From positions 1 through 48,097 of the IMG/VR virus record IMGVR_UViG_3300030106_005189: DNA of 48,097 nucleotides, one strand, 5' to 3'. How positions within the stretch are numbered: position 1 is the stretch's first letter; each line of letters begins with the position of its first letter. The DNA comes from a virus. Below, one piece after another: positions 19,755 to 24,758 of the stretch. Position numbers and translations under genes: made by a program. The notes under the pieces are model-generated. The model saw only the letters and a list, made by a program, of their open reading frames with translations, ran no database searches and had not been told where the DNA came from.

Positions 19755-19841
19755 ACTTTCTTTATTATTATTTCTACATACAAAAAAAGTTTGCATGTGG
19801 CAATAATTTATATATAGGGATTATTAGGAAGAAGATTGAAT

Positions 19842-20300
19842 ATGGTAAAAGTAGTTAAAGATCCTAATAAAAATAAGTTTAAAACAGGCAATCCTAAAGA
19901 TGGAAAACATTATTGGTTAACTCCACCAGATTTATATAACAAGTTAAACAAAGAATTTAATTTTGATTTTGATCCTTGTCCTTATCCATTACCAAAAGAT
20001 TTTGATGGTCTTACGTGTGAGTGGGGAAAATCTAGTTATGTAAATCCTCCGTTTGGATCAATAATACATGAAGGAAGAAAGAAAGGAGCAACAGCTTGGG
20101 TAAGAAAAGCTTTAGCAGAGTATGAAAAAGGCAAGGATGTAGTATTTGTTTTTCCTGTAGATAAATGGATACTAATGATGTTAGAAGCTGGTGCAGAGGT
20201 TAGAAATTTAAAAGATGTTAAATGGTTAGCAACAGAAGATAACAGTCAAGGGAAAGGATTAGGTAGGCACATAGCCTGCTTTATTTTAAAAAATGGGTAA
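19842..20300 (+). CDS. dam: Phage DNA N6-adenine methyltransferase
   Basis: 152 residues. YWLTPPDLYNKLNKEFNFDF begins the phage-type Dam family pattern, continued by DPCPYP (44-49) and the catalytic NPPF (68-71) in SSYVNPPFG. It uses S-adenosylmethionine to methylate adenine, usually in GATC for this family, here unproven. Possible uses are protection from host restriction or marking phage DNA. A weak GGAAGAAG lies upstream of the ATG; a TTG at 19836 is possible. GATC sites lie in the control region upstream of the early genes. Confidence 0.88.
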   Translation: MVKVVKDPNKNKFKTGNPKDGKHYWLTPPDLYNKLNKEFNFDFDPCPYPLPKDFDGLTCEWGKSSYVNPPFGSIIHEGRKKGATAWVRKALAEYEKGKDVVFVFPVDKWILMMLEAGAEVRNLKDVKWLATEDNSQGKGLGRHIACFILKNG

Positions 20301-22059: not shown

Positions 22060-23661
22060 ATGGACGTTGCTAAATTTAAAAATATTTTCACAGGCTTAAA
22101 TAGAGCTAGAGGCCTTTTTACATTTGAAGAAGAAGACGTAAGCAACGGTAAAAGTGTAGGCTTATATAGAACAATAAAAGAGGAGCCTTTATTAAAACAC
22201 TATCAATCACACCTTGAAGGTAAGTATCCATCACTTGGCATTGTGCCTATTAGAGATGACAACACAGCAACATTTGGTTGTATTGATATTGATGAATACC
22301 CACTTGATCATAAAAAAATTATCACAGATATTAGAAAAAAAGATTTACCTTTAATAGTTTGTCAATCTAAGTCTCTAGGGGCGCACATTTATTTGTTTTC
22401 TAAAGAACCTCAACCGTGTGTTACATGGGACAAGACACTTAGATCAATTGCATCTGTTTTAGGTTTTTCTGGAAAAGAAATATTTCCAAAACAAAAAAAA
22501 CTTAATGGTAAAGATGATGTGGGATCATGGATTAATTTACCTTACTTTGGTGAGATGAGATATGCATTTTTAGATTCTGGAGAGGGTGCATCATTAGAAG
22601 AATTTTTTGCAATGTATGATCAATACGTTTGTGATGACATTGAAAAAATATCAATTCAAAAGAAAATTATTAAAACTAAAAAATCAAAATTTAAATTTGA
22701 CATGGCACCTCCTTGCTTAAAAATTATGGAGGGCAAAGGCTATCCTCAAGGCACTAGAAACAATGGTATATTTAATGTTGGTGTATTTTATAGAAAAGCT
22801 TTTCCAAATGATTGGGAGGATTTATTACAAAAATTTATAACAAAATATATGCCAGAGATGAAACCAGAAGAAGTTATCAGAGAGAAAAAACAAATCGCTT
22901 TAAACAATGATGAAGGAGAGATAAAATATTTTTATCGATGTAATGATGTGCCAATAAAAAATCATTGTAATAAAGAATTATGTGCAACAACTAGATACGG
23001 AATAAAAAAAGAAGAGGTATTTGCAGACTATCCAGTAGTCACTGAGCTGCACATACTAGATAGTCAACCCCCTGTTTATTATGTGTATGCAGATGTAAAT
23101 GGTAAAAGGTTAAAAACTAGAGTTGATGATGAGGATCATCTTTTATATGCAAAACCTTTTAGAAAAGTTTTTAATAGAACTCATTTAATAAATTTTCCAA
23201 AAGTTTCTGAAAAAGATTGGGATGCTCTTATTGATCATTTGTATAAAAATAAAATAATTATTGAGGCACCAGAAGATGCATCGACATATGCAGAGTTTAT
23301 GGATTACCTAAATGAGTTTTGTGCTACCAATGGACGTGGATCAAAGAGCATGGACGAATTATCATTAGACAGAGCCTTTATTGATGAGGAAAAAGAAAAA
23401 ATATATTTTAAATTAGAAACATTTCAAAAATGGTTACAGAATACTAAAAATTATAAAAAGAAACGAAGCACGCTAGTAAGTTTCTTACGTGATGAAGCAA
23501 AAGCAGAATCTACTTTTGTACAGGTAAACAAGAAAAGTCAACGGTGCTGGGAATTAGATTTTAAATTAGACGACACCACAATAGAAAAACCAGATCTTAA
23601 AATGAATACAAAAGATAAAGACGTATTAGGATCTACAGATGAAGAGGAGATACCATTTTAA
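22060..23661 (+). CDS. Archaeo-eukaryotic-type primase (TOTE-like)
   Basis: 533 residues. TFGCIDIDEYPLD gives the catalytic DxD (Asp76, Asp78) and CQSKSLGAHIYLF gives the SxxxxxH pocket (103-109), as in AEP primases of the TOTE/PrimPol type. A Cys cluster at about 307-322 (RCNDVPIKNHCNKELC) may bind zinc. The last residues are DEEEIPF, like the SSB tip. It makes primers for the family A polymerase. There is no clear ribosome site at the ATG, which lies 20 bases after the terminator. Confidence 0.82.
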   Translation: MDVAKFKNIFTGLNRARGLFTFEEEDVSNGKSVGLYRTIKEEPLLKHYQSHLEGKYPSLGIVPIRDDNTATFGCIDIDEYPLDHKKIITDIRKKDLPLIVCQSKSLGAHIYLFSKEPQPCVTWDKTLRSIASVLGFSGKEIFPKQKKLNGKDDVGSWINLPYFGEMRYAFLDSGEGASLEEFFAMYDQYVCDDIEKISIQKKIIKTKKSKFKFDMAPPCLKIMEGKGYPQGTRNNGIFNVGVFYRKAFPNDWEDLLQKFITKYMPEMKPEEVIREKKQIALNNDEGEIKYFYRCNDVPIKNHCNKELCATTRYGIKKEEVFADYPVVTELHILDSQPPVYYVYADVNGKRLKTRVDDEDHLLYAKPFRKVFNRTHLINFPKVSEKDWDALIDHLYKNKIIIEAPEDASTYAEFMDYLNEFCATNGRGSKSMDELSLDRAFIDEEKEKIYFKLETFQKWLQNTKNYKKKRSTLVSFLRDEAKAESTFVQVNKKSQRCWELDFKLDDTTIEKPDLKMNTKDKDVLGSTDEEEIPF

Positions 23662-24758
23662 GACATTTAGATTTATTTAGTGGCATAGGTGGTTTTAGTT
23701 TAGGACTTGAAGCTACTGGTGGTTTTGAGACTGTTGCTTTCTGTGATATAGATAAATATTCACGACAAGTTTTACAGAAGCACTGGCCCCATGTTAAACA
23801 ATACGAAGATATAAAGGAGTTGACTTATGAAAGACTTAAAGCAGATGGACTTCTTCCCATCGACATCATCACAGGAGGATACCCTTGCCAACCTTTCTCC
23901 CTCGCAGGTAGAAAAAAAGGTGAAGAAGATCCAAGACACCTCTGGCCAGAGTATTTTAGACTTATCAAAGAACTCAGACCAACTTGGGTTATTGGAGAAA
24001 ATGTTAGTGGACACATTAAACTTGGTCTCGACACCGTACTTGAGAACTTGGAGAGCGAAGGTTACTCCACAAGGACGTTTAGTATTTCAGCTTCGAGCGT
24101 CGGTGCAAACCACCAAAGAGAAAGAGTCTGGATCTTGGCCCACACCAAACGCAAGAGATTGGAAAGATTCAATGAACAAAGTTCCTCCTTCAGTGGGAAA
24201 AACAAGGGGACACAGCTTGGGAATGAAAGTAGCACAGAGACTATGGAGAACTCCAGACAACATGGCGGGGGGATCGAACTTACCAGGAATAAAGAAAGCA
24301 TTGGACGAGGGTCATCTAAAGAGACCGAGTGGTCAACAAATACAGATAAGACTAGAGGATCAAGTGAAAGAACCAAGACTATGGCCAACACCAAGGGCCT
24401 CACAGGCGATGAACGAGAATTTAGAAACAGTCGAGAAGAGAGTAATGAAAAAAGGATTTCTAGGGGCAAAATTAGAGGAAAAAATAGCGATCTGGCCGAC
24501 TCCAGCAGCTCACGAAGGCAGGTTGGGTTATCAAAGGAGAGACACAGGGAAGAAGGGCACGCAGAAAAGTTTGACAACGAAAGTAATAGACAAAGAGGGT
24601 GGCAGAGAGAAGACAACTGGGCAATTGAACCCAACGTGGGTAGAGTGGCTCATGGGATACCCAATAGGGTGGACAGACTTAAATGTCTCGGAAACAGCCT
24701 TGTTCCACAAATCCCCTACTACATCGGATCAGTAATTTTAAGGACTATAAATGATTAA
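23655..24758 (+). CDS. dcm: C5-cytosine DNA methyltransferase, ATT start, dual-coded
   Basis: 367 residues. Motif I LDLFSGIGGFSLGLE, motif IV GGYPCQPFSLAG (catalytic Cys), motif VI GENVSGH, motif VIII NHQRERVW and motifs IX-X RVDRLKCLGNSLVPQIPYYIG are all present. The frame opens after a TGA at 23640 and has no ATG, GTG or TTG before motif I. An ATT at 23655, 5 bases after GGAG, is the best start. Residues between motifs VIII and IX are Ser/Arg/Glu-rich with LAHT, MENS, MANT and LADS repeats. A second protein is read from the same bases in the +1 frame. Confidence 0.88.
   Translation: MLRHLDLFSGIGGFSLGLEATGGFETVAFCDIDKYSRQVLQKHWPHVKQYEDIKELTYERLKADGLLPIDIITGGYPCQPFSLAGRKKGEEDPRHLWPEYFRLIKELRPTWVIGENVSGHIKLGLDTVLENLESEGYSTRTFSISASSVGANHQRERVWILAHTKRKRLERFNEQSSSFSGKNKGTQLGNESSTETMENSRQHGGGIELTRNKESIGRGSSKETEWSTNTDKTRGSSERTKTMANTKGLTGDEREFRNSREESNEKRISRGKIRGKNSDLADSSSSRRQVGLSKERHREEGHAEKFDNESNRQRGWQREDNWAIEPNVGRVAHGIPNRVDRLKCLGNSLVPQIPYYIGSVILRTIND
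23827..24735 (+). CDS. Overlapping WPTP-repeat protein encoded inside the methyltransferase gene
   Basis: 302 residues in the +1 frame of the methyltransferase. The ATG at 23827 has AAAGGAG 7 bases upstream, which is of no use to the methyltransferase frame there. WPTPNARDWKD, WRTPDNMAGG, WPTPRASQAM and WPTPAAHEG are followed by LNPTWVEWLMGYPIGWTDL. I recall WPTP...LNPxWVEWLMGxPxGWT proteins as a family found next to phage cytosine methyltransferases, often annotated as methyltransferase-associated. The function is unknown. A target-recognition or partner subunit is conceivable. Ribosome site plus family motifs argue for real translation. Confidence 0.72.
   Translation: MKDLKQMDFFPSTSSQEDTLANLSPSQVEKKVKKIQDTSGQSILDLSKNSDQLGLLEKMLVDTLNLVSTPYLRTWRAKVTPQGRLVFQLRASVQTTKEKESGSWPTPNARDWKDSMNKVPPSVGKTRGHSLGMKVAQRLWRTPDNMAGGSNLPGIKKALDEGHLKRPSGQQIQIRLEDQVKEPRLWPTPRASQAMNENLETVEKRVMKKGFLGAKLEEKIAIWPTPAAHEGRLGYQRRDTGKKGTQKSLTTKVIDKEGGREKTTGQLNPTWVEWLMGYPIGWTDLNVSETALFHKSPTTSDQ

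Follow-up and report, generated by a model that had tools for sequence, protein, structure and literature searches.

We describe a locus of a viral genome that very probably encodes a two-subunit C5-methyltransferase, with a catalytic subunit alpha and a recognition subunit beta written into one DNA stretch in two reading frames. The window, meaning the whole stretch of 48,097 nucleotides that was analysed, is nearly the whole of the 50.6-kb virus record IMGVR_UViG_3300030106_005189. In it a 302-residue ORF in the +1 frame (beta, 23827–24735, plus strand) is nested completely within the 367-residue ORF of a C5-methyltransferase (alpha, 23655–24758, plus strand). Both frames are real and conserved, and the domains of the enzyme are divided between alpha and beta. 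C5 methylases close on the DNA with two domains, a large one (motifs I–VIII and X) and a small one (variable region and motif IX) (PMC3404938), and it is highly likely that alpha and beta are the counterparts of these two domains.

Results

The methylase frame is open from 23643 to 24758 and offers no in-frame ATG, GTG or TTG for alpha before 23820. Judged from the sequence, alpha probably starts with the AUU codon at 23655, so that its 5' end overlaps the stop of a primase-like gene, and a GAGGAG, its likely ribosome-binding site (23644–23649, plus strand), lies 5 bases upstream of this codon. The combination of GAGGAG and ATT recurs in several homologues, the ATT context being found in L082, L002, L086, L087, L114, L117 and L145. 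Beta possesses its own ATG with the ribosome-binding site AAAGGAG (23813–23819, plus strand) 7 bases before it, and this start and its Shine–Dalgarno (SD) sequence are conserved, with an SD-like motif in 62 of 67 distinct sequences upstream of beta. A weak alpha start next to a strong beta start might set the ratio of the subunits. An earlier, sequence-only reading of this DNA had given the same coordinates and length for the +1 ORF, the same ATG, AAAGGAG and spacing, the WPTP repeats and the C-terminal strings of both proteins, all of which we could reproduce. The primase-like protein directly upstream of alpha (22060–23661) matches the archaeo-eukaryotic primase domain of TOTE systems (PF22548, 4.3e-10), and a gene for a UvrD-type helicase is located downstream of the locus. 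A further protein at 19836–20300 carries the signature WLTPPDLY...YVNPPFG, which resembles phage N6-adenine methyltransferases, and we take it to be a second methylase of this phage.

Alpha matches PF00145 at 1.8e-46 and PHROG_363 (‘DNA methyltransferase’) at 1.6e-78 and possesses motifs I, IV (PCQ), VI (ENV), VIII (QRxR) and X, as expected for a C5-cytosine DNA methyltransferase of family PF00145. Its catalytic part with motifs I–VIII (PCQPFS, ENV, QRERVW) is encoded at 23655–24149 (plus strand). Residues 2–172 match M.HhaI, the matches to PDB entries end at about residue 172, and AlphaFold predicts the large domain (residues 1–178) mostly with confidence. Motif IX and the target recognition region of an ordinary C5 methyltransferase are missing from the alpha chain, and no motif IX of the LTPREC type was found in it. 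In an alignment of 53 alpha sequences motifs I–VIII and X are conserved and the region between them varies in length and shows no conserved residue. In the window this region is a linker (residues 179–333, 24189–24653, plus strand) that is predicted to be disordered, mostly with pLDDT <50 at residues 197–333, that shares its DNA with the modules of beta and in which frame-0 position 1 is the fastest site. It is followed by the motif X segment RVDRLKCLGNSLVPQIPYYIG (24666–24752, plus strand), which is conserved in the alpha alignment and has predicted helices at residues 338–346 and 352–366, the C-terminal motif X helix being modelled with confidence from about residue 351. The claim made earlier that the methylase contains all key C5 motifs thus holds for motifs I–VIII and X but not for motif IX, as alpha has no canonical one and the motif IX-like sequence LNPTWVEWLMGYP lies in the +1 frame.

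Beta belongs to PHROG_1008 (3e-36), a family that is likewise labelled ‘DNA methyltransferase’, and searches of Pfam and NCBIfam gave no match for it. The protein begins with a constant N-terminal part (residues 1–103, 23827–24135, plus strand), recognizable from the alignment and the substitution rates, in which both frames are constrained. Modules starting with WPTP or a variant of it follow, and the architecture ends with the near-invariant LNPxWVEWLMGYPxGWTDL. The four PTP modules of the window, all on the plus strand, are module 1 (WPTPNARDWKDS..., 36 aa, 24136–24243), from a family that is also seen outside alpha in other loci, and modules 2 (WRTPDNMAGGSN..., 46 aa, 24244–24381), 3 (WPTPRASQAMNE..., 37 aa, 24382–24492) and 4 (WPTPAAHEGRLG..., 44 aa, 24493–24624), whose families are present in 43, 20 and 8 loci, respectively. 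We collected 377 modules from 105 distinct betas, which have a median length of 41 aa (IQR 36–46) and fall into 53 families that take differing ordinal positions and form 70 arrangements. In L018, L011 and L064, and also in L005 and its relatives, beta extends past the alpha stop with additional PTP modules, up to several of them, and in these extensions the methylase frame contains many stops. From the varied positions and arrangements and from the additions past the alpha stop we conclude that modules are exchanged and added and that those inside alpha have to stay open in two frames. The PTP modules are probably target-recognition domains.

The last segment of beta, LNPTWVEWLMGYPIGWTDL (24625–24681, plus strand), is near-invariant in 67 betas and its counterpart comes immediately before motif X in fused enzymes. 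An hhalign comparison of beta with six canonical C5 methylases placed LNPTWVEWLMGYP on LTPREC.RLQGF in a weak match (E 0.016, probability 2.8%), and as the direct profile match is weak, we assign this segment to motif IX mainly from its position and from the fused forms. The structure model of beta is of low confidence (mean pLDDT 65); a search with this model against solved structures (Foldseek, VIA-align) gave no match, and the beta profile gave only a chance match among PDB sequences.

The relatives of beta link it to the half of C5 methylases that holds target recognition and motif IX, and by profile comparison we could show its homology to the C-terminal part of single-chain enzymes. Such single chains, which match PF00145 in their N-terminal and PHROG_1008 in their C-terminal portion, are present in actinobacteriophages (Madiba gp71, OldBen gp68, Fitzgerald gp4 and prophi91-4 gp24), where PTP modules are followed by EWMMGWPxGW or a variant and then by the motif X sequence GNGV, and the profile of window-type betas matches their C-terminal halves. 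In the mycobacteriophage CloudWang3 the enzyme is divided between the overlapping genes gp91 (motifs I–VIII) and gp90 (modules, IX and X), the latter matching PHROG_1008 at 5.8e-86. Two overlapping ‘DNA methylase’ genes in the record L282 (1447–2443) and in some 400 further mycobacteriophage records resemble an alpha/beta split C5 methylase. Among bacterial loci, L210 has an alpha that stops right after motif VIII and a beta with both IX and X, and in L214 the full beta is a separate downstream gene and the copy within alpha is truncated. The sequence-only reading had suggested a search against stand-alone homologues, and L214, one of the bacterial loci found with the beta profile, carries such a gene.

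Using the beta profile we scanned a genome collection and confirmed 347 stretches. The best 80 of these 347 represent many phyla; in 79 of them beta overlaps alpha, always in the +1 register seen in the window, and the remaining one (L214) has beta as a separate gene. The 79 include L210 with its alpha ending after motif VIII. The pair is also carried by E. coli prophages, as 66 of 5,426 genomes match a phage copy of the methylase, and both frames are open in each of the two E. coli records examined.

If beta were genuine and nested but acted independently of the methylase, for example in anti-restriction or regulation, its lack of a Pfam or NCBIfam family and of a confident fold would be easily understood. 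However, alpha is accompanied by beta in essentially every examined locus, in single-chain C5 methylases the relatives of beta make up the C-terminal half, beta appears to supply exactly what alpha is without, and in L210 motif X is located on beta too, and we therefore consider an independent function very unlikely.

The selection acting on the two frames was analyzed in several ways. When the frame-0 protein of the window was held constant and its codons were shuffled, the +1 frame contained a mean of 5.6 stops, compared with 0 observed, and none of 300 permutations reached 0. About 160 homologous loci have an open +1 frame, and an excess of openness over the same null was also found in most of 82 homologues, nearly all of which had been retrieved via frame-0 similarity alone; where some of these still show +1 stops, the cause appears to be alignments extending beyond the stop of the +1 protein itself. 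In the opposite direction, 74 distinct loci picked by beta (+1) similarity alone have 0 alpha-frame stops in the 18,437 codons that precede motif IX, compared with 1,637 in the third frame, and this rules out alpha as a decayed frame. When the beta protein was held constant instead, about 703 alpha-frame stops were expected over the final part of the overlap in 111 loci, and 0 were found. The bacterial loci L175, L198 and L217 have one alpha-frame stop each. Modules were also compared by location, with stops in 0 of 336 inside alpha and in 21 of 21 outside it; this comparison is circular in part, since the stop of alpha itself defines what counts as ‘inside’, and the count in the 74 loci is its fair version. 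An antisense ORF of 190 aa (24062–24634) was also considered and rejected, as its stop counts in homologues are close to the null means and give no sign of selection.

As the fastest-changing base should be the third codon position of the selected frame, we took 39 disjoint pairs of homologues and determined their divergence separately for frame-0 positions 1/2/3. This set uses each sequence once, although deeper shared ancestry remains, whereas the counts of an all-pairs version are non-independent. The divergence is.082/.044/.259 before the overlap (sign test 7e-12),.082/.026/.109 over the initial 300 bases of the overlap,.215/.078/.078 in mid-overlap (1e-7),.147/.034/.091 close to the C-terminus of the +1 protein and.055/.040/.219 beyond the beta stop (1e-7), and the sign tests across the 39 pairs are significant for every region. 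The methylase frame thus dominates on either side of the overlap. Within the overlap, the first third is under constraint in both frames, and the middle and the end are dominated by the +1 frame. The +1 ORF is a real protein. The sequence-only reading had postulated two conserved proteins and proposed a synonymous-site test of homologues; the test on the 39 pairs and the absence of stops in either frame bear this out, and we found neither homologues with a broken +1 frame beside a kept methylase nor an undiminished synonymous variation in the overlap. Its picture of dual constraint has to be corrected in one respect, as both frames are conserved but in mid-overlap the +1 protein is more constrained than the methylase.

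These data also bear on the possibility that a single chain is made by programmed frameshifting, starting in alpha, shifting to +1 after motif VIII to translate motif IX and the recognition region that precedes it, and possibly returning to frame 0 for motif X. The resulting order of I–VIII, target recognition domain (TRD), IX and X would be that of single-chain enzymes, and fused single chains do exist. But beta has its own conserved SD and start about 300 bases before the PTP modules, in a part where both frames are constrained, the alpha frame is stop-free through the modules, which a shift would not need, and beta is a separate gene in L214; we hence give frameshifting slightly less credit still than an independent function. 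That alpha alone is functional and the +1 ORF a by-product of codon usage or composition, as long accidental ORFs sometimes occur in compositionally biased genes, is practically negligible, since such coding noise is refuted by the codon permutations and the shift of the third-position signal to the +1 frame, and beta has homology outside alpha and un-nested as well as fused homologues.

Discussion

The reading that we prefer is a two-subunit enzyme. Alpha (frame 0) would form the large domain, with motifs I–VIII leading through an unstructured linker of about 155 residues to motif X, and beta (+1 frame, own start) would form the small domain, with its constant N-terminal part, four PTP modules and the motif IX-like segment, the four modules most likely recognizing the DNA target. 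Between motifs VIII and X the DNA would carry information mainly for beta, and alpha would only have to avoid stops. Alpha requires a bridge from VIII to X, and very probably the recognition DNA of beta, read out of frame, provides this bridge. With both proteins expressed, as we assume, beta would dock on alpha and complete the DNA-binding cleft, and the complex would methylate the phage DNA, probably to evade host restriction. Splitting a C5 methylase between motif VIII and the TRD, while leaving the C-terminal helix on the large domain, yields parts close to its two native domains (PMC5944983). The earlier idea of a two-protein unit of specificity plus catalysis is supported by the dual-frame selection, the lack of stops in each frame when the other protein is held constant, the un-nested beta of L214, the shortened alpha of L210 and the fused single chains.

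The principle of a C5 methylase made of two polypeptides is already known, because M.EcoHK31I and M.AquI are natural examples. The small polypeptide of M.EcoHK31I is encoded in an alternative frame inside the large gene. Here too a second conserved polypeptide is nested in another frame. M.EcoHK31I (YGGCCR) has motifs I–VIII and X on its large and IX on its small polypeptide (PMC3404938), and the window shares this division into two polypeptides, with X clear in alpha and IX assigned to beta by position in fused homologues. In contrast, the predicted TRD of M.EcoHK31I is on the large polypeptide, whereas here the middle of alpha is unconstrained and predicted to be disordered and the recognition-like modules are in beta. 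M.AquI consists of a catalytic polypeptide with I–VIII and a second polypeptide with the distal TRD and IX (PMC3404938). Its division into a catalytic chain and a chain with recognition and motif IX is the same, but its motif X is on the small subunit, while the window keeps X in alpha; only the relatives L210 and CloudWang3 gp91/gp90 have IX and X on the small subunit as in M.AquI. The locus differs from these systems in that target recognition appears to reside in beta. Further differences are that beta is an array of shuffled modules, that fused, separate and AquI-like relatives link the forms, and that the arrangement is common.

The multispecific C5 methylases of Bacillus phages reportedly consist, in the account of Trautner and co-workers from 1996, of a constant portion and, behind it, a tandem array of recognition domains of about 38–54 residues each. 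Beta likewise has a constant N-terminal part and tandem modules with a median of 41 residues, and in the size and layout of these putative recognition modules it resembles M.SPRI and M.phi3TI; unlike beta, these enzymes are single chains in one frame. There is perhaps an even chance that beta is an evolvable cassette of swappable PTP modules of about 41 residues, which phages swap or add in order to change or multiply their methylation specificities. Insertions inside alpha would then stay open in both frames, and one region would encode a multispecific recognition subunit in one frame and, in the second, the catalytic subunit's tether.

Existing annotation reflects the pair only in part. PHROG_363 and PHROG_1008 are the families of alpha and beta, and their labels are silent on the nesting and on the role of beta. 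For the E. coli record 40EC the RefSeq annotation covers alpha only, and in the Ec1117 prophage (L292, 1444–2655) it gives two partial alpha pseudogenes, yet an alpha of 404 aa and a nested beta of 343 aa are open. In Paenibacillus larvae phages (e.g. Bloom gp56/gp57) both nested CDS carry the deposited name ‘DNA cytosine methyltransferase’; we did not find a two-subunit interpretation in a paper covering 48 such phages, and our literature searches found no description of the nested alpha/beta family.

Conclusion

The nested arrangement turns up repeatedly, in marine phages, in E. coli prophages and across many bacterial phyla. Few cases have been documented of long same-strand overlaps in which one gene lies wholly within another and selection can be measured on both frames. 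The pair explains a large class of ‘DNA cytosine methyltransferases’ that have a low-complexity middle and no motif IX. Annotation often leaves out half of the enzyme, and cloning of alpha only could yield false negatives when methylomes are assigned. If the modules are recognition domains, the beta sequences would offer a route to predict and engineer C5 specificity.
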